This document shows positions 1,454 to 45,211 of a stretch of 46,563 nt of DNA, piece by piece (position 1 is the stretch's first letter; the number at the start of each line of letters is the position of its first letter). The stretch lies in the NCBI GenBank assembly GCA_022614915.1, contig JAKEHV010000272.1:1-46563 (forward strand). Reading direction: 5' to 3'. The notes under the pieces are model-generated. The model did not search any database. It saw only the letters and a list, made by a program, of their open reading frames with translations, and had not been told where the DNA came from. Source of the DNA: Gemmataceae bacterium. Lineage in GTDB: Bacteria > Planctomycetota > Planctomycetia > Gemmatales > Gemmataceae. A program made the translations under genes and the position numbers.

Positions 1454-3208
1454 ATGACCCACCTCCATCGCTACCTGGTCCAATTCAGCCCCAAGCACAC
1501 GCCGCACGTCTTCACGGACATTCTCGTCATCGGCGCGGGCATTGCCGGGTTGCGGGCGGCGCTCGCGGTGCCGGATGCGCTCGACGTGCTCGTGGTCACC
1601 AAGGACAAGATTCGGCTTTCGAGCAGCAGCTACGCCCAGGGTGGCATCGCTACGGTGCTGTCGCCGGAGGACCGCTTCGAAAACCACATCGAAGACACCA
1701 TCAAGGCCGGCGGCGGACTGTGCCAGCGCGACATTGTCGAAATGGTGGTGCGCGAAGCGCCGGAGCAGATCGCCGACCTCATCTCCTGGGGCACGCACTT
1801 CGACGAGGAAGACGGCCACCTGGCCCTGACGCGCGAAGGGGGCCACAGCCATCGCCGCATCGTCCACGCTTTGGGCGACGCCACCGGCTTCGAGGTGATG
1901 CGCGCGATCATCGAGCACGCCAGGAAGATGCCCCACATTACACTTTGGGACGACGCGTTTACGCTCGATCTCTTGACGCACGAAGGCCGCTGCGTCGGTG
2001 CGCTCGTGCACCGCGGCGGACACGGCAAGCTCTTGGTCTGGGCCAAACAGACAATCTTGGCCAGCGGCGGCGCGGGCATGGTCTATCGCGAGACCACCAA
2101 TCCGCCGGTGGCCACCGGCGACGGCATGGCGGCGGCGTATCGCGCGGGCGCGGAGCTGCGCGACATGGAATTTATGCAGTTTCACCCGACGGTGCTTTAT
2201 GTCGCCGGCTCGAGCCGCTTCCTCATCAGCGAAGCGCTGCGCGGCGAGGGCGCCTACCTGCGCGACAAGAACATGGACCGGTTCATGTTGGCCCCCCTCA
2301 CCCCCGACCTCTCTCCCAAAGGGCGAGGGGAGCTTTCATCGGATCCCCTCACCCCCAACCCCTCTCCCTCAGGGAGAGGGGAGAAGCTGGACACCCCCGG
2401 CCCCTCTCCCTCGATGGAGAGGGGAGTTGTTGCGGACCCACGTGCCGAATTGGCCCCACGCGACGTTGTCGCCCAGGCCATCGTCCGGCAAATGGAGAAA
2501 ACCAAGCACCCCAACGTCTATCTCGATCTGCGTCATCTCGACCCCGCGCTGGTGCGGCGGCGCTTTCCCGGCATTGACAAAATGTGCCGCGGCTTCGGTC
2601 TGGACATCACCGCGGACCTCATCCCGGTCCGCCCCGGGGCGCATTACATGATCGGCGGCGTCACGGTCGACGAGCGCGGCCAAACGGCCCTGCCGGGTTT
2701 ATGGGCCGCCGGTGAAGTGACGTCGAGCGGCTTGCACGGGGCCAACCGGCTGGCGTCCAACAGCCTGCTCGAAGGTCTCGTGTTCGGCACGGCGTGCGGC
2801 CGTGGCGCGGCCGAAGCCGCCGCGCAAATCCAGGATCGCTTCACGGCGCTGCCCATCGCCAACCGCCTCGAGCCGGAGACCGACGGCGCACTCGACGTGC
2901 CCGACCTTACGAGTTCACTGCGCAGCCTGATGGTGCGGCACATGGGGGTCATCCGCGATCAATCCGGCCTGGAACAAGCGCAGCGCGACGTCGCCTTCTG
3001 GTGCCGCTATGTCCTTAGGCGCGAGTTTGACGCCCGCTCCGGCTGGGAATTGCAAAACCTCCTCACCATCGCCCGGCTCATGATCCACTCGGCCTTGGAG
3101 CGAACAGAATCGCGCGGCGTCCATTTCCGCGGCGATTATCCGCAATCGGACGAACACTGGCAACGACACATTGCCTGTGCCGGTTTCGAATGCCTATTCA
3201 GCGCTTGA
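1454..3208 (+). CDS. nadB: L-aspartate oxidase (quinolinate synthase B) with an in-frame repeat insertion
   Basis: NadB oxidises L-aspartate to iminoaspartate with FAD, the first step of de novo NAD synthesis, in the cytoplasm. The FAD-binding GxGxxG is at residues 27-32 (VIGAGIAG), followed by SSSSYAQGGIA, the GGHSHRRIVHALGDATG substrate-site motif, FHPTVLY, SEALRGEGAYL, PGAHYMIGGV and LHGANRLASNSLLEG, all in family order. The C-terminal helical domain ends with ESRGVHFRGDYP. The chain is 584 residues against about 540 usual. The excess is residues 280-325, a three-unit repeat (xLTPxxSPxGRGE) placed between RFM and the conserved AELAPRDVV. Without it the protein aligns from end to end, so it may well still be active. 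No strong ribosome-binding site precedes the ATG. Confidence 0.93.
   Translation: MTHLHRYLVQFSPKHTPHVFTDILVIGAGIAGLRAALAVPDALDVLVVTKDKIRLSSSSYAQGGIATVLSPEDRFENHIEDTIKAGGGLCQRDIVEMVVREAPEQIADLISWGTHFDEEDGHLALTREGGHSHRRIVHALGDATGFEVMRAIIEHARKMPHITLWDDAFTLDLLTHEGRCVGALVHRGGHGKLLVWAKQTILASGGAGMVYRETTNPPVATGDGMAAAYRAGAELRDMEFMQFHPTVLYVAGSSRFLISEALRGEGAYLRDKNMDRFMLAPLTPDLSPKGRGELSSDPLTPNPSPSGRGEKLDTPGPSPSMERGVVADPRAELAPRDVVAQAIVRQMEKTKHPNVYLDLRHLDPALVRRRFPGIDKMCRGFGLDITADLIPVRPGAHYMIGGVTVDERGQTALPGLWAAGEVTSSGLHGANRLASNSLLEGLVFGTACGRGAAEAAAQIQDRFTALPIANRLEPETDGALDVPDLTSSLRSLMVRHMGVIRDQSGLEQAQRDVAFWCRYVLRREFDARSGWELQNLLTIARLMIHSALERTESRGVHFRGDYPQSDEHWQRHIACAGFECLFSA
2293..2427 (+). repeat. Three tandem units of the CCCCTCACCCC..GGGAGAGGGG palindromic repeat inside nadB
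   Basis: The units lie at about 2293-2332, 2344-2383 and 2394-2427. Each has a C-rich arm (CCCCTCTCCC) and a complementary arm (GGGAGAGGGG); the middle unit is a perfect 10-bp stem around TCA. The third unit is the most diverged. All are read in the same frame as L-T-P-x-x-S-P-x-x-R-G. Further copies at 14413-14453, 30272-30314 and 30649-30690 have the same orientation. Confidence 0.95.
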
Positions 3209-4063: not shown

Positions 4064-4948
4064 CTACTTCAGCCGCACGATGGTTTTTTGCGTGATGCGC
4101 TGATTGAGGTTCATGCCGTTCGCCTCGATGGACATTTCCATGACCTGATCGGAAGTCATTTCCAATAGCCGGCCTGCTTCGTTGTCAAACAGGGCCACGC
4201 CTTTGCCTTCCTGGCTTTTGAGCTTGATCGGCGAGGCCGGATCGGCGTCGATTCTCACCTGGGGCTTCATCGCGATTTTCTCCAAGTGCTTGCCGCCCTT
4301 TTCAATGGGTCCTTCATAGGTGAACTCGATGTCGCCGGTCATCTTGCCGAACGGCATCTTCATGCTCACTTTCTGATTCCAGGTCTTGCCCTTGGCGACT
4401 GCCTCCTTGGGGAGAATCATGCCGCCTTGTATCATCTTCTTGAGGCCTTCTTCGGAAAACAAATCGCCCATCTGGTCGCCGCCCGGCAGGTTTTTCAATG
4501 CTTCCAAGGCCTTCGCCGGAATCTTCGCGTCTTTCACTTCGCCCGTTGCATCCATCTTGCAGTCGAATTCCAATCCCCCAATCGTCTTGACGACTTGGTG
4601 CAGAGTCTTGCCGATCAGGTCGTTCGGCTCCTCCGTGCTGGTGGAATCGACTTCCACCTTACCCGTGGGACCATCCATCGCCATCTTGGCCTTGCCAAAC
4701 TTGATGGTGATCTGCGCGACGCCGTCTTCCACTTTGCCGACAATCCAGCCCATGTCCATGTGCTGAGTCATGTCGATGCCGAACTCCTTGCCGGCAACGT
4801 TCATGGCCATCTTCATTTTCTGCTCCAGTTGGTATTGGAGCTTGTCGCCTTCCTTGAATTTGAAGCGGAGTGTTGTTTGGGCGTTGATTTGGCCGGCACA
4901 CACAACCAGCGCCACGGCCGCCAAAGCCATTTCTTTCCATGATTTCAT
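4064..4948 (-). CDS. Exported protein of unknown function (DUF6263-like)
   Basis: A 294-residue protein begins with a signal peptide (MKSWKEMALAAVALVVCAGQINA, cleavage probably after the last A), so it is exported. The rest is rich in beta-strands with alternating Lys and hydrophobic residues: TTLRFKFKEGDKLQYQLEQ, then MTQHMDMGWIVGKV, KGKTWNQKVSMKMP and FTYEGPIEKGGK. This matches a planctomycete family I associate with DUF6263; no catalytic motif is visible. AAAGG lies 7 bases before the ATG. It is a single gene, convergent with the Uma2 gene and divergent from the redoxin-like gene. The repeat region at 4967-5216 lies upstream. Confidence 0.72.
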   Translation of the reverse strand: MKSWKEMALAAVALVVCAGQINAQTTLRFKFKEGDKLQYQLEQKMKMAMNVAGKEFGIDMTQHMDMGWIVGKVEDGVAQITIKFGKAKMAMDGPTGKVEVDSTSTEEPNDLIGKTLHQVVKTIGGLEFDCKMDATGEVKDAKIPAKALEALKNLPGGDQMGDLFSEEGLKKMIQGGMILPKEAVAKGKTWNQKVSMKMPFGKMTGDIEFTYEGPIEKGGKHLEKIAMKPQVRIDADPASPIKLKSQEGKGVALFDNEAGRLLEMTSDQVMEMSIEANGMNLNQRITQKTIVRLK

Positions 4949-4966
4949 GGCAGTGCCTTTCTAAGC

Positions 4967-5216
4967 AGGAGTGAGGGGTCAGGGGTCAAGAGACAGGGGT
5001 CAATGGACAGGGTCACAACCATAAGCATTGTAACCGGGTCAGGGGTCGGGGGACAGGGGTCAGGAGTCAGAGGTCAGGGGTCAGGAGTCAGAGGTCAGCA
5101 AGAAGCACAAGTCAGAGAAACTGGACAAAAGGCAGAGCATGTGAAGCCTGGCGCCGGATCTGACCCTTGACCTCTGTCCTCTGTCCTCTGACTCCTGGTC
5201 CCCTGCCCTTGTGCTT
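4967..5216. repeat. Array of GGGGTCA/GAGTCAGAG-type short repeats with an inverted copy
   Basis: This gene-free stretch between divergent genes holds many near-copies of AGGGGTCA, GGACAGGGGTCA and AGGAGTCAGAGGTCA (4967-5099). The complementary series (TGACCCTTGACCTCTG, CCTCTGACTCCTGG) follows at 5159-5206. AAGCACAAG (5103-5111) is exactly complementary to CTTGTGCTT (5208-5216), so the block could fold into a large imperfect hairpin. No promoter could be placed with confidence. Confidence 0.8.
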
Positions 5217-11898: not shown

Positions 11899-13416
11899 AT
11901 GTCCTTTCTTGACTTCGCACGTTCGCGCTGGGCGGTCTTGTTCGTGGCGGGTTACGCCGCCTTTCTCTTCTTCTTCGGACTGGGCGCGCGCGATTTGCAC
12001 AGCAGCCATGAAGCGCGGGCCGCGCAAAACGCGCAGACGATACTCGACGAAGGCAATTGGCTCTTGCCCAAGCTTTTCGACCAGCACGTCGAATTGCAAA
12101 AGCCGCCGCTCTATTACTGGCTCGTGGCCCTGTGCGGCTGGGCGCTGGGCGAACTCAACGTCTGGGCGGTGCGGCTGCCGGCGGCGCTGGCGGCGCTGGG
12201 CACGGTCCTTTGGATCTACTTCTTGTTGCGCAAGCTTGGCCGGCCCGTCGCGGGCTTGAGCGCGGCCCTCATGCTGGCTACCAGCGTGCATTTCACCTGG
12301 CTGGCGCGCATCGGCCGTATCGACATGCCGCTGACCTTCGCGGTCGCGCTCGCCGTCGGCTGTTTCTTTCTGAGCACCAGGCGCTGGTATCTTGTCGGCT
12401 ATCTGGCGTTGGCGGCAGGCGTTCTCCTCAAAGGCCCCGTCGCGCTGGTGCTCGTCGCGATTGTGATCGGCTCCTTGCTGAGTCTCGAGAAGATGACGCG
12501 CGCCCATCGAGAAAACCGGCCTCCGGCCGCGCAGGCGCTTCGCTCGCTGTCGTGGGGCGTTCCGCTGGTTCTCGCGCTGACAGCGCCGTGGTTCCTGTGG
12601 GCGAATGCGCAAACGGATAATCGCATTTGGGAAGTGTTCTTCTTCTATCACAATGTCGAACGGGCCCTGGGCGGCTCGGAGACGTTGGCCGCTTACCCCT
12701 TCTGGTATTACTTGCCGCGCCTGTTTTTGGACCTTTTGCCGTGGAGCGCGGCGCTACCGGTTGCTTGTTGGTGGCTGTGGCGTCGGCGACAAGACGTAGG
12801 ACGGGTCTCCAGGCCCGTCCTATCCGATCGGGAAGCGCGGCTGGGCGCCGTTTGGTTCTTCTCTATCTTTGTTCTTCTCTCCTGCCTGAGCTTCAAGCGC
12901 GCCGACTACCTGTTGCCGACTTATCCCGGCGTTGCCATCCTGTTAGGCTGCGCGGCGGAGAAACTGTGGCAAGCTCTAAACACGGGAAGTGTTTCGCGTG
13001 GTATGCTCCGAGCGCGAAGCGCAAGCGGTTACTCTGTTGCGGCAATGCTCATTGCCGTTGCCGCCGGCTGGGGCATCTACAACGGCATCCTTGTGCCTAA
13101 ACAGGAACAAGGTTGGCCGCTGGCGCGCTTAGGCCGGGACATCCGTGAGAAAACGCACATGCCGGTAGTCTTCTTTCGCGCGGAGTCGCATCTATTGGCG
13201 TTTCACTTGGGCCGGCCGCTGGGCACCATTCTCGAGTGGGAAAACCTCGACATCTGGGTGAGCCACAAACTGCCGGTCTACTTTGTCATGCCGCCGGACT
13301 GCGCCGAGGAATGGCCCATTCACCTGACGAAAGGCCAATTGGAAGAAGTTTGTCGCACGCCGGATTTTGGCGAGCGCCACCGCCCGCTCGTGGTGATGCG
13401 CAGCTGCCCGCAATAA
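11899..13416 (+). CDS. Glycosyltransferase family 39 (ArnT/PMT-like) membrane protein
   Basis: The family transfers sugars from a polyprenyl-phosphate donor on the outer face of the inner membrane. Visible are a first helix (residues 10-30), a periplasmic loop HSSHEARAAQNAQTIL (His-Glu where other members have Asp-Glu), ELQKPPLYYWLVAL, AVRLPAALAALGTV, RIGRIDMPL, LLKGPVALVLV, further membrane helices, and a soluble C-terminal region from about 405. These are standard ArnT-like landmarks. At residues 299-309 the short stretch DVGRVSRPVLSD is coded by a palindromic repeat. Stretch 359-371 (TGSVSRGMLRARS) also looks repeat-derived. AGGGG lies 6 bases before the ATG. It lies 55 bp after the ABC exporter. 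Confidence 0.85.
   Translation: MSFLDFARSRWAVLFVAGYAAFLFFFGLGARDLHSSHEARAAQNAQTILDEGNWLLPKLFDQHVELQKPPLYYWLVALCGWALGELNVWAVRLPAALAALGTVLWIYFLLRKLGRPVAGLSAALMLATSVHFTWLARIGRIDMPLTFAVALAVGCFFLSTRRWYLVGYLALAAGVLLKGPVALVLVAIVIGSLLSLEKMTRAHRENRPPAAQALRSLSWGVPLVLALTAPWFLWANAQTDNRIWEVFFFYHNVERALGGSETLAAYPFWYYLPRLFLDLLPWSAALPVACWWLWRRRQDVGRVSRPVLSDREARLGAVWFFSIFVLLSCLSFKRADYLLPTYPGVAILLGCAAEKLWQALNTGSVSRGMLRARSASGYSVAAMLIAVAAGWGIYNGILVPKQEQGWPLARLGRDIREKTHMPVVFFRAESHLLAFHLGRPLGTILEWENLDIWVSHKLPVYFVMPPDCAEEWPIHLTKGQLEEVCRTPDFGERHRPLVVMRSCPQ
12796..12823 (+). repeat. GTAGGACGGG..CCCGTCCTATC palindrome inside the GT39 gene
   Basis: TAGGACGGG (12797-12805) and CCCGTCCTA (12814-12822) form a perfect 9-bp stem around an 8-base loop. 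It lies in frame and adds about ten residues in a loop between membrane helices. Confidence 0.8.
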
Positions 13417-13523
13417 CATATACAGATGTTCGATTTACTCTCACGCCGCACTAGATGCTAATTCAGTACTACAGTTCGTGTGGCATTTAGGGCTGTGCCG
13501 TAAGGGAACGAGAGTTAGCGCGG

Positions 13524-14387
13524 ATGGAATACTCGAAGGACTCCCGTTTCGAACGGGCGCCGATTCGCCAAGCGCCGATCAGCGTCGTTCTGACCGCCTA
13601 TCAAAACGCATTGGAAGTACACGAAGTCGTCGCTGCTTGGCAAACGCATCTGGAAAGTCTGGAGCGCACATGTGAGATCATCGTCGTCGATGACGGCAGC
13701 AGCGATGATACGCGTGCCCAAGTCGAAGCGCTATGCCCACGTTTTCCGAATCTGCGCCTCTCCTACCTGGAACCGCATGGCGGCATAGGCAATGCTTTGC
13801 AAATCGGCATCAGCGCCGCTCAGCATCCGCTTTTGGTCACGGCCCCTTGTGACAAGCAATTCTTTCCTCCCGATCTCACGCGCGCCCTCGACGCCATCGA
13901 CCAGGTCGATCTCGTCGCCGGCTATCGTGTGGGCAAGCCGCTGCCGCTCTGGCTGCGCGTTTGGGACGGCATCCGCAGCGTGCTGGGTCGGATCTTGCTC
14001 GGCGCGACACCGGACAAGCGCGACTGCTGGCTCGGTTGGCGGCACTGGCGCAGGCGTTGCGCGGCCCGCTGGATCTTCGGCGTCCGCGTGCATGATCCGG
14101 AGTGTCCTTTTCGGCTCTATCGCAGAGAGGTTTTCCGCCGCATCCCGATTCAATGCCAATCAAGCGCCGCGCACATCGAAATCCTCGCCAAAGCGAATCA
14201 CTTGGAGTGCATCATGGCGGAGGTTCCCGTCAGTTGGGAACCGTCGAAAAGTGTCGCGCTTGATACTGTAGAAAGTCGTTATTGGAAAGAGCTGCGCCGG
14301 CTCTTCCGGCGTCCCGAGTTCGGGCCGGCACAGACGCCGCCTCAGGTTCAGGACATCCACGCAACATCTCAGGAAACTCCAATCTGA
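13524..14387 (+). CDS. Glycosyltransferase family 2 (DPM1-like)
   Basis: A GT-A fold enzyme, likely transferring a sugar from a nucleotide donor to a polyprenyl phosphate at the inner membrane. PISVVLTAYQN (17-27) is the first strand; EIIVVDDGSSDDT (51-63) binds the nucleotide; GGIGNALQIGI follows. The usual D-x-D position reads APCDKQF (107-113), keeping only one Asp, so metal binding may be altered. DPECPFRLYRREVFRRI near residue 200 is the acceptor-side motif of dolichol-phosphate mannose synthase-like enzymes. No C-terminal membrane helices are present. A polyprenyl-phosphate-sugar maker beside a GT39 enzyme that uses such donors is a coherent pair; this functional link is an inference. 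Confidence 0.83.
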   Translation: MEYSKDSRFERAPIRQAPISVVLTAYQNALEVHEVVAAWQTHLESLERTCEIIVVDDGSSDDTRAQVEALCPRFPNLRLSYLEPHGGIGNALQIGISAAQHPLLVTAPCDKQFFPPDLTRALDAIDQVDLVAGYRVGKPLPLWLRVWDGIRSVLGRILLGATPDKRDCWLGWRHWRRRCAARWIFGVRVHDPECPFRLYRREVFRRIPIQCQSSAAHIEILAKANHLECIMAEVPVSWEPSKSVALDTVESRYWKELRRLFRRPEFGPAQTPPQVQDIHATSQETPI

Positions 14388-14412: not shown

Positions 14413-14453
14413 CCCCCTCACCCCCCACCCCTCTCCCTCCAGGGCGAGGGGAG
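14413..14453 (+). repeat. Intergenic copy of the CCCCTCACCCC..GGCGAGGGGAG repeat
   Basis: One unit with arms CCCCTCTCCCT and AGGGCGAGGGG lies between the GT2 and NHL genes, in the same orientation as the copies inside nadB and cotH. It shows that the element is also found outside coding sequence. Confidence 0.9.
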
Positions 14454-28460: not shown

Positions 28461-30809
28461 ATGGGGGAAGCGATGCGTCCTCGAAACTGGCTGTTGCTGC
28501 ATTTCCTTTTTCTCATTGGCTTTATGTCCGTGCCCTACCTCGCGGCTCAACAGGGCAAAAACGAAAAGAAAGAGCCGGACAAGAAGGAATTCGACAAAAA
28601 GGCCTTCTTTTTCGCCGGTCCAGGGGGTCCATTCGGACAGAATAGCAAGCTGGTCAAGCAATTCGACAAAGACGGGGACAAACGGCTGAACAACGAAGAA
28701 CGACAGGCCGCCCGCGAGTTTCTCAAGAAAGAGCGAGCCTCGGGCAAAGGATTCGGCCCAGGTTTTGGACCCGGCGGCAAGGGTCCTGGTGGCAAAGGCA
28801 AAGGCCCGGGCGGCTTTGGACCGGGCGGGTTTTTCAGCAAGCCGTTCGTCGATGCGGTTGACTCGGACAAGGACGGCAAGCTGGCCAAAGACGAAGTGAT
28901 CGTAAGCGTCAAAAAGTTCTATGCCGACACCCGCAAAGAGAACAAGGGCGCCCTCGACGAAAAGCAGATTGCCGACGCGCTTGGCAAGATACTCCCTAGG
29001 CCGCAGTTTTTTCCCGCTCCCGTCCCGGAGGCGGGAAAGGCGGACAAGCCCGTCGTCATTGTCCAGGCCTTACCCTCAGGCGGCGAAGTCATTCCGCAAC
29101 CGCCTGGGGGAGGCGGCTTCGTCGTCGTCGGTCCGGAACGATTCGTGGCCGGCAACATCGTGCAGCGCGCCGACAGCAACAAAGACGGCAAAGTGACGCT
29201 CAATGAGTGCGTGGCGGCGGCCGAGACGCTGTTCAAGGAAGCCGACGCGGACAAAGACGGCAAGCTGAGCGACGAAGAAGTGAGCGCCGGCCTGAGCCGG
29301 CTTTTCGCGCCGCCGCAAGGTTTCCCCGGCGGATTTGGTCCCGGCCCCTTCGGCAAACGCGACCCCGCCAAGCCGGGCCCGCGCGTCACGCCTGCCGACG
29401 TCAAATCCTATGCCGACGCGCCTCTTTATGAACCGTCGGTGCTCCGCACTTTGTTCCTGGAGTTCGAAAACAAAGATTGGGAAGAAGAGCTTGCCGACTT
29501 CAAAGGCAGCGATGTCGAGGTGCCGGCCGTCTTGACCGTCGACGGCAAGAAATATCCCAACGTCGGCGTCCATTTCCGCGGCATGTCGAGCTACGGCATG
29601 ACGCCCGCCGGTTACAAGCGCTCGCTCAACCTGTCGCTCGATTTCGCCGACCCCAAGCAGCGGCTCTATGGCCAAAAGACGCTCAACCTCCTCAACGCAG
29701 CCGGCGATTCGTCGTTGCTCAGCACGGCGCTGTACTCTCACATTGCCCGGCAATACATTCCGGCCCCCAAAGCGAATCTCGTCAAAGTCGTCATCAACGG
29801 CGAAAGCTGGGGCGTCTACGCCAATGTGCAACAATTCAACAAAGACTTCGTCGCCGAGAATTACGGCAGCGACAAGGGCGCCCGTTGGAAGGTCAGCCCC
29901 GGCGGCGACGGCCTGACCTACCACGGCGACAAAATCGAAGACTACAAACGCCGTTACCAGATCAAGTCCCAAGACGACCAGAAATCCTGGAAGGCGCTCG
30001 TCAATCTGTGCCGCATCCTCAACCAGACTCCGCCGGACAAGCTCGAGGAAGCCCTGACGCCGATTCTGGACATCGACGGCGCTTTGAAGTTCCTCGCGCT
30101 CGACGTGGTCCTATCCAACAGCGACGGCTATTGGATTCGCGCCAGCGACTACAGCATCTACCGCGATCCCAAAGGCAAGTTCCACATTATCCCGCACGAC
30201 ATGAACGAAGCATTTCAGCCGGCCATGGGCTTCATGTTCGGCCCGCCCGGCGGCATCGGGCCCAAGGGCGGCCCCCTCACCCCCGACCCCTCTCCCCCAC
30301 AGGGGCGAGGGGAGAAACTGCCGAAGGGCGGCAAGAAAGAATTCGACGGTCCCAAAGGCAAGGGCGGTTTCGGCGGCCCCAAAGGCGGCATGGGCCAAGG
30401 CACGGCCGGTCCCGATCCGTTGGTTGGTCTGGACGACATGCGCAAGCCGCTGCGCAGCAAATTACTTGCCGTGCCGAGCCTGAAAGCGAAGTATCTCGAC
30501 TACGTGCGGGCCATCGCCCAAGACAACCTGGATTGGAAAAAACTCGGCCCAGTCGTCGCGCAGTATCGAGCGCTCATCGAGAAAGAAGTTGAGATCGACA
30601 CTCGCAAGCTGGTGACGCTAGCTGCGTTTCAACAAGCAACCGCCGACGCCCCCTCACCCCTCACCCCTCTCCCCCCTGGCGGCGAGGGAAAAACTGGGCC
30701 CGGCGGGCGCGGCTTCGGCATGAGCCTCAGAAACTTCGCCGAGGAGCGGCGCAACTATCTCCTGGGCCATCCGGAAGTGAAACAAGGCGGAAAGGAGGCC
30801 GCGCGGTGA
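28461..30809 (+). CDS. CotH kinase-like protein with four EF-hands, exported
   Basis: A signal peptide (about residues 5-29, ending YLAAQQ) is followed by EF-hand loops DKDGDKRLNNEE (69-80), DSDKDGKLAKDE (134-145), DSNKDGKVTLNE (238-249) and DADKDGKLSDEE (262-273), separated by Gly/Pro/Lys-rich linkers. The CotH domain starts near 325 (LYEPSVLRTLFLEF, VGVHFRGMSSYG, RSLNLSLDFADP) and includes IIPHDMNEAFQP. CotH proteins are kinase-fold enzymes that phosphorylate spore-coat protein in Bacillus. Planctomycete ones are exported and calcium-binding by their EF-hands. Two in-frame repeats lie at about 605-618 and 730-743. The stop overlaps the VTC gene start. Start 28461 or ATG 28473 (GGGGAAG just upstream) both possible. 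Confidence 0.9.
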   Translation: MGEAMRPRNWLLLHFLFLIGFMSVPYLAAQQGKNEKKEPDKKEFDKKAFFFAGPGGPFGQNSKLVKQFDKDGDKRLNNEERQAAREFLKKERASGKGFGPGFGPGGKGPGGKGKGPGGFGPGGFFSKPFVDAVDSDKDGKLAKDEVIVSVKKFYADTRKENKGALDEKQIADALGKILPRPQFFPAPVPEAGKADKPVVIVQALPSGGEVIPQPPGGGGFVVVGPERFVAGNIVQRADSNKDGKVTLNECVAAAETLFKEADADKDGKLSDEEVSAGLSRLFAPPQGFPGGFGPGPFGKRDPAKPGPRVTPADVKSYADAPLYEPSVLRTLFLEFENKDWEEELADFKGSDVEVPAVLTVDGKKYPNVGVHFRGMSSYGMTPAGYKRSLNLSLDFADPKQRLYGQKTLNLLNAAGDSSLLSTALYSHIARQYIPAPKANLVKVVINGESWGVYANVQQFNKDFVAENYGSDKGARWKVSPGGDGLTYHGDKIEDYKRRYQIKSQDDQKSWKALVNLCRILNQTPPDKLEEALTPILDIDGALKFLALDVVLSNSDGYWIRASDYSIYRDPKGKFHIIPHDMNEAFQPAMGFMFGPPGGIGPKGGPLTPDPSPPQGRGEKLPKGGKKEFDGPKGKGGFGGPKGGMGQGTAGPDPLVGLDDMRKPLRSKLLAVPSLKAKYLDYVRAIAQDNLDWKKLGPVVAQYRALIEKEVEIDTRKLVTLAAFQQATADAPSPLTPLPPGGEGKTGPGGRGFGMSLRNFAEERRNYLLGHPEVKQGGKEAAR
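30272..30314 (+). repeat. CCCCTCACCCC..GGCGAGGGGAG repeat in frame inside the CotH gene
   Basis: One unit is read as PLTPDPSPPQGRGE within a Gly-rich linker. Arms CCCCTCTCCCCC and GGGGCGAGGGG pair. Same orientation and same reading frame as the nadB copies. Confidence 0.93.
30649..30690 (+). repeat. Diverged second repeat unit in the CotH gene
   Basis: Read as SPLTPLPPGGEGK, in frame, between the helical region and the C-terminal GRGFGMSLRNF. Arms CCCCTCTCCCCCC and GGCGAGGG are partly conserved. Confidence 0.85.
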
Positions 30810-36544: not shown

Positions 36545-36577
36545 GGATCCATCCTTTCGTGCCTAAGCGAGACAACC

Positions 36578-36629
36578 CTAGCCCGACGCGCAAGCAAGGG
36601 GCAACGCTAGCCCGACGCGCAAGCGAGGG
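36578..36629 (+). repeat. Tandem pair of the CTAGCCCGACGCGC(A/T)AGCGAGGG repeat
   Basis: Copies at 36578-36600 and 36607-36629 differ at one base (AAGCAAGGG against AAGCGAGGG). The same 23-bp unit forms the ends of the element at 45068-45211. The gene-free stretch 36545-36805 otherwise holds nothing recognised. Confidence 0.88.
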
Positions 36630-36805
36630 GAATTGCAGAAGATAACCGAAAATGGATTTTGCGCCCAAGAGGAGTTTGCGAGATTTGTGGATCAGAAGGT
36701 GCAGTTGGCAATCTGGAGAATCTGCGCGGACCGGATCGAACCGACTCACCCGACTTCATTAGGCATAATGGAACGAAGTATGACAGATAGGACAGACTGA
36801 ACCTC

Positions 36806-37028: not shown

Positions 37029-37102
37029 GCGCCCGTAGCTCAACTGGATAGAGCATCGGTCTTCGGAACCGAGGGTTGGGGGTTCGAATCCCTCCGGGCG
37101 TA
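37029..37102 (+). tRNA. tRNA-Arg(UCG)
   Basis: The cloverleaf is complete: acceptor GCGCCCG/CGGGCGT, D-arm GCTC...GAGC, anticodon stem TCGGT/ACCGA with loop CTTCGGA (anticodon TCG), a five-base variable loop, and T-arm GGGGG-TTCGAAT-CCCTC. Discriminator A; no encoded CCA. First pair is G-U. It should read CGA and related Arg codons. The start codon of the next gene lies only 5 bases beyond it. Confidence 0.95.
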
Positions 37103-44980: not shown

Positions 44981-45067
44981 GTAAGATCAACCGCGGAGGC
45001 GCGGAGGAACGCAGAGAGACAAAATGAAACGCCCCGCGCCGATAGAATCAATGATGGAAAGCGCGCA

Positions 45068-45211
45068 ACACTAGCCCGACGCGCTAGCGAGGGCGCACAG
45101 GTCGCCCGTGGGAAATGAATCCCTTGGCAATCATCCTGCGAGGAATCCCAGGTGGGAATTGACTTCCTCGCGGGCAACACGTCCGCCCTCGCTAGCGCGT
45201 CGGGCTAGTGT
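45068..45211. mobile_element. 144-bp element with perfect 28-bp inverted ends (MITE-like)
   Basis: Ends at 45068-45095 (begins ACACTAGCCCGACGCG) and 45184-45211 (ends CGCGTCGGGCTAGTGT) are perfect reverse complements over 28 bp. The inside (about 88 bp) has no open reading frame of note but contains a further GCGAGGAA / TTCCTCGC pair. No target-site duplication is visible. Its end unit also occurs as a tandem pair at 36578-36629. It resembles a non-autonomous miniature element; no transposase is in the window. Confidence 0.65.

Follow-up and report, generated by a model that had tools for sequence, protein, structure and literature searches.

A short palindromic element lying within many genes of a Gemmataceae genome

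Insertions into genes normally wreck them, which is why short bacterial palindromes are called 'extragenic'. REPs are palindromes of small size (14-40 nt in E. coli) that are present in many similar copies, are extragenic and are seldom found to overlap coding regions, and MITEs are recognised by a target-site duplication, terminal inverted repeats and a size of 70-300 bp. The Rickettsia palindromic elements (RPE) are said to have been described by Ogata et al. 2000, 2002. Passages in three papers put the length of RPE at 105-146 bp or about 150 bp (PMC2229807, PMC10969869, PMC3733652), and passages in two of them record RPE in frame in 19 genes by one count and an enzyme test of gmk that showed activity (PMC2229807, PMC10969869). 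Di Nocera et al. 2013 report that most REPs are intergenic, that intragenic REPs of the GTAG/CGTC type are found mostly in Opitutus terrae and Rickettsia conorii, that their host genes include those for tRNA synthetases and repair, and that GTAG repeats occur in the PVC superphylum also (PMC3733652). The 107-bp form of Correia/NEMIS and the ERIC/RU elements are given as approximately 100-200 bp long with terminal inverted repeats (PMC2229807).

The element described here was found in a stretch of 46,563 nt (the window), which is contig C182 of a draft Gemmataceae assembly (6.14 Mb in 601 contigs, 86% complete, 4.3% contamination); a search with its NadB protein gave Planctomycetota MAGs as the closest named relatives, several of them labelled Gemmataceae. 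Judged from its sequence and distribution, it is very probably a REP/MITE-like palindrome 39-42 nt long, mobile but non-autonomous, that has turned frame-compatible and spread through genes. No report of it was found in the open-access literature, which does describe, for other bacteria, RPEs and REPs located inside genes, most subscription papers lying outside the search, and a literature search with the element's own letters returned only unrelated papers.

The element and its insertions

Alignment over the sampled genome shows an element with sharp ends and a total length of 39-42 nt, consisting in order of CCC, a C-rich 21-nt core (CTCACCCCCNNCCCCTCTCCC), a loop region mostly of 5-8 nt and the right arm GCGAGGGGAG. 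The predicted fold is a hairpin (CCCCTC.CCC/GGG.GAGGGG) with one mismatch, which is the sole inverted repeat of the element and lies behind an unpaired C-rich head whose conserved sequence, CCCCTCACCCCC, is neither GTAG nor CGTC. Calculated hairpin energies were -16.7 and -20.8 kcal/mol, with z values of -0.98 and -2.04 against shuffled sequences, only the second being clearly below them. An Rfam search of the window returned only a tRNA (37029-37102), the element matching no Rfam RNA family. A variant of related sequence, CCTCACCCCTACCCCTCTCCC with GGGAGAGG as its arm, was seen at 13319-14058 of locus L118, at 751-795 of L120 and in L087, and may represent a second family within the same genome; a pattern matching the variant, with the spacing one base shorter, found 11 copies, none of them in the window. 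Because it is a nearer-perfect palindrome, the variant is often scored as overlapping plus and minus matches.

Six core matches with at most three mismatches occur in the window (at 2297, 2348, 2390, 14417, 30276 and 30653), where shuffled sequences lead to an expectation of 0.01, and all six are on the plus strand, as the original prediction had stated. Three of them make up an insertion of 138 nt, or 46 codons (2294..2431, plus strand), in nadB (1454..3208, plus strand), which encodes an L-aspartate oxidase of 584 aa (Pfam FAD_binding_2, 2.6e-98; PDB 1chu, 8.7e-104); two units have CTC starts at 2297 and 2348, the one at 2390 is degenerate, and codon phase 0 is common to all three. A 40-nt copy (14414..14453) lies between two plus-strand genes and is itself on the plus strand, again as predicted. 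The remaining two are in a gene (28461..30809, plus strand) for an EF-hand and CotH kinase-like protein of 782 aa (Pfam CotH, 9.3e-40; EF-hand_1, 1.2e-11). The first (30273..30314, plus strand) is 42 nt long, is missing from relatives and has a possible 9-nt flanking direct repeat, AAGGGCGGC, giving a net insert of 60 nt, and the second (30650..30691, plus strand) is diverged. Both had been claimed to share the reading frame of the nadB copies. This proved correct for the copy at 30276, in which CTC is at codon position 0 as in the three nadB copies, but not for that at 30653, which is in phase 2; the register proposed for it holds only for a second CTCACCCC word inside the copy, at 30660. In the whole-hairpin alignment the first copy reads PLTPDPSPPQGRGE and the second PSPLTPLPPGGEGK. 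The six plus-strand units do not amount to six independent events, since three belong to a single array, two occupy the same gene and the genes of the window mostly point to the right.

The window also carries a second repeat with a 29-nt unit, CTAGCCCGACGCGC.AGCRAGGG, as a tandem (36573-36601 and 36602-36630) and a distant copy (45066-45094) that are 86-93% alike, and words of this repeat adjoin an element copy in L058 too. A tandem CAGGGGTCA/GGAGTCAG minisatellite (4966-5097) lies beside the gene at 4064-4948.

That the units are true insertions is shown by the genes of relatives (NadB, the CotH-like protein) and by PDB homologues (DXR, GrpE, NAD kinase) that are without them. The stretch of NadB from RFM to APRD is 16 residues long in 108 of 109 homologues (29 from the relatives searched and 80 from the search that gave the named relatives), 26 in the other one and 62 here, and the 46-codon gain corresponds to a 46-residue insert present in 0 of the 109. 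A NadB-like match was obtained in all 40 relatives searched; in those with the two halves of the true orthologue listed, it stops at residue 278-284 and resumes at 315-331. Aligned with the E. coli enzyme (1chu), the insert is placed between residues 278 and 282, immediately ahead of the ELAPR motif. The arginine of this motif is number 290 in the alignment, and Arg290 is catalytic in L-aspartate oxidase. An AlphaFold2 model of NadB has a mean pLDDT of 82, with the stretch 281-329 under 50, and these residues are thus predicted to form a disordered loop; low pLDDT is also to be expected here because no homologue covers the insert. The inserts in DXR, GrpE and NAD kinase were seen against solved PDB homologues, and in the CotH-like protein both copies are in loops that vary among relatives, the first in a Gly-rich loop. 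The insert peptides predicted for NadB, DXR and GrpE are LTPDPSPSGRGE-like and SPPTPLPQGEG-like, and Pro/Gly/Ser-rich segments of this kind would persist as disordered, near-neutral loops.

Placement and length of the insertions

The core occurs 209 times in the genome with at most two mismatches, as against 12 matches for the reversed pattern. Gene context was determined in 1.07 Mb, about one sixth of the genome, comprising the window and 80 fetched contig stretches chosen for listed copies, for Y1 transposase genes (three contigs) or, in one case, as a further contig. A loose definition yielded 136 copies in this sample, but its reversed-pattern control was poor (103 matches) owing to the similarity of the motif to its own reverse; a stricter definition yielded 125 units, making up 109 independent insertions, with 18 units in a replacement control that combined whole-sequence reversal with a tighter arm. 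Genes were called with a small in-house codon model rather than a published annotator, and a Pfam match in 71 of 78 host genes indicates that the calls are sound for this purpose.

By the strict count 52 insertions are sense to their host gene, 34 antisense, 18 intergenic and 5 overlap gene ends (58, 45, 28 and 5 by the loose count), so that 86 of 109 (78.9%) lie wholly inside predicted genes, which is the share (78.7%) found for random 42-mers. There are at least 78 host genes in this sixth of the genome, and in 19 of the 78 a copy of one or the other orientation is enclosed by a single above-cutoff Pfam domain match, examples being DXP reductoisomerase, GrpE, a class I tRNA synthetase, DUF1501, carboxyltransferase A/B, a sulfatase and an amino oxidase. 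In DnaA the copy is near the N-terminus, ahead of the ATPase domain, and in NAD kinase it is between the domains. The Lhr-like helicase genes of L083 and L113 each hold two copies, at different places.

An important consideration is whether such a distribution could be left by purifying selection acting on insertions of random length and any orientation, with the only survivors being frame-preserving, stop-free copies in tolerant loops. This is a serious competitor, though appreciably short of an even chance, and it is favoured by the location of copies in loops or between conserved blocks, by the absence of all 86 genic insertions from the frame that carries a stop, and by the scarcity of candidate frameshift-broken genes, of which there are few among the 23 insertions not wholly genic, as judged by gene spacing only. 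However, with random insert length and five of six frames open the genic share is expected to be 50.7%, about half of the survivors thus falling outside genes, and the observed 86 of 109 departs from this with p = 1.9e-9, so that an added preference for genes or a loss of intergenic copies would be needed. Furthermore, 68 of 99 genic units have an element length divisible by three, as do 17 of 26 units not wholly genic, and the latter figure is unexplained by selection itself.

The preferred explanation, a mobile palindrome of frame-compatible length, would have each event add the element and a short target duplication, 48-60 nt in total, and a genic insertion would usually add 16-20 residues without a frameshift because this length is compatible with codons. 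A duplication is suggested by tests with a variable offset, which were above chance: in 10 of 106 insertions the end of the left flank is found again, over at least 6 nt, immediately after the element, whereas permutation gave a mean of 1.28 and at most 4, and repeats of at least 5 nt flank only 13 of 106 insertions against 4.3 expected. A test for target duplication at a fixed offset was negative, with a best value of 3.62 and a permuted mean of 3.24 (maximum 4.19). Element, spacer and repeat together come to a multiple of three in 10 of the 13 insertions resolved by repeats of at least 5 nt, at 48-60 nt, namely in 7 of 9 within genes, where selection demands it, and in 3 of 4 outside; total insert length was measured for NadB alone (138 nt) and inferred for these 13. 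Among 13 genic tandem pairs the spacing as printed is a multiple of three in 11, the exceptions being L059, where a spacing of 41 reflects a misplaced start and is otherwise 48, and L113, where 49 is real. Three pairs outside or at the edge of genes have spacings of 51, 45 and 53, the last again due to a misplaced start and otherwise 45.

A bolder version holds that the insertion (element, spacer and target duplication) is quantised in codons wherever it lands, making the element a genome-wide peptide inserter that lengthens the loops of housekeeping enzymes in either orientation. Genes would then be no barrier, since every insertion would add a multiple of three, but such strict quantisation is judged unlikely.

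Relatives, transposases and the direction of insertion

The strict element is present in 16 of 95 genomes of the family, with 92 copies in the source genome and 24 in the next. Its length is a multiple of three in 29 of the 42 exact copies listed here (of 92), compared with 20 of 82 listed in 15 relatives, in which the commonest length among the copies listed is 41 nt and the share varies from 7 of 7 (G089) to 0 of 24 (G018). It may well be the case, then, that a codon-compatible version, 39 or 42 nt long, multiplied in this lineage, although such lengths also predominate in certain low-copy relatives, G089 among them. In G018 the copies are often divergent pairs (minus then plus) 47-54 nt apart, resembling BIME dimers and unlike the tandem arrays of the source genome, and contigs C47 and C146 of G017 carry tandem core arrays of 5 and 6 copies with an exact 57-nt period.

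A different picture is found in G021, of the same family, which has 442 core matches. Its element has the same 21-nt core and the same hairpin position, with the right arm GAGAGGGGAG instead of GCGAGGGGAG, and of the 70 units in 630 kb of this genome 67 fall between genes, 2 within them and 1 at a gene end; in 20 stretches taken regardless of copies all 31 units are intergenic. That the G021 copies come out as intergenic shows that the method of calling genes is not biased towards placing copies inside them. On an informal look in nine genomes, the open frames that surround the nadB insert peptide agree with this contrast. Flanking direct repeats were none above chance for the G021 element. 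The loci examined (L214-L253) have longer conserved flanks, GCGCCACGTCGCAC ... AAATGCAGGCGCCGCTCGCC, and two loop subtypes.

In gammaproteobacteria REPs are moved by RAYTs, which are Y1 transposases, and it could be supposed that the same holds for this element. Among 41 genomes, with cut-offs set after the tables had been viewed, a Y1_Tnp match (E <= 1e-13) was present in 10 of 10 with at least 10 core copies as against 7 of 31 others. However, no convincing copy was seen beside any of 32 distinct Y1_Tnp loci, for which up to about 1.5 kb of flanking sequence was fetched, the one match, in L190, being weak and unconvincing, and flanking direct repeats, which to our knowledge are not expected of this class of transposase, are present, leaving mobilisation by a RAYT rather improbable.

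The plus-strand bias of the window had originally been taken to suggest directional spread, or selection for one reading frame as a functional Pro/Gly linker. Beyond the 6 of 6 plus-strand units, it accords with this proposal that the proposed frame (sense frame 0) is the commonest. Nevertheless, directional spread is refuted by the use of both strands genome-wide (98 forward and 111 reverse core matches), and 34 of the 86 insertions in genes are antisense. The frames of the 86 are 26, 9 and 17 for sense 0, 1 and 2 and 16 and 18 for antisense 1 and 2, so that five of six are occupied, with antisense frame 0 unused because it carries TGA from CTCA. A rule of one strand or one frame is ruled out by these counts and by the CotH-gene copies, which are in phases 0 and 2, and the proposal as a whole is left with very little probability. 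What stands is the idea that stop codons limit the frames used, along with the Pro/Gly/Ser-rich character of the insert, its predicted disorder in NadB and a mild preference among frames. The sense share of genic insertions, 60.5%, is close to the 59.3% predicted (p = 0.91) by counting the stop-free frames in the 125 units, each used in proportion, whilst use of the open frames is mildly uneven (p = 0.023), with sense frame 1 the rarest. A mild frame preference may exist alongside the refuted rule, and the strand and frame pattern would be what remains after avoidance of stop codons and a mild preference at the level of the protein.

Chance C-rich low-complexity sequence or an assembly artefact, for which only the C-rich core and the 18 units of the reversed-sequence control against the true 125 could be cited, can be dismissed in view of the sharp ends, the paired hairpin, the expectation of 0.01 matches in the window and the presence of inserts inside conserved proteins on many contigs.

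Comparison with known systems

The element is thus a high-copy palindrome placed as though genes were absent, while a relative's version with the same core keeps outside them, and this poses the testable question of whether a change in length of 1-3 bases, to a multiple of three, makes coding sequence accessible to a mobile element. The dozens of naturally occurring insertions in known proteins (NadB, DXR, GrpE, DnaA, NAD kinase) likewise allow tolerance of insertion to be gauged.

In size, palindromic structure and copy number (39-42 nt, a hairpin, 209 core matches) the element agrees with the REPs, but whereas REPs are extragenic, most copies here are wholly genic, the G021 element being the one that keeps to the rule. 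Nor were the repeats found to flank a Y1 transposase gene as in a REPtron, 0 of 32 Y1_Tnp loci having a convincing copy in the flanks fetched. Intragenic GTAG/CGTC REPs, as far as the source describes them, share the short hairpin with an unpaired head and the location of some copies inside genes; the head here is CCCCTCACCCCC, however, and 79% of insertions are genic. At 39-42 nt, and with the hairpin as sole inverted repeat, the element differs from MITEs in size and in terminal inverted repeats. A likeness to the 107-bp form of Correia/NEMIS and to ERIC/RU, compared here by description from part of the source, lies in their being small and non-autonomous, with open frames fused in frame to genes (PMC2229807). 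Set against RPE, likewise by the descriptions in the passages cited, the element is shorter at 39-42 nt, is C/G-rich, belongs to another phylum and uses both orientations and five frames. What it has in common with RPE is that short palindromes lie in frame in many unrelated conserved genes and are tolerated in the protein, with homologues that are without the insert, and the hallmark of RPE, an in-frame insert in a conserved gene that is missing from homologues, is seen here in NadB, the CotH-like protein, DXR, GrpE and NAD kinase.
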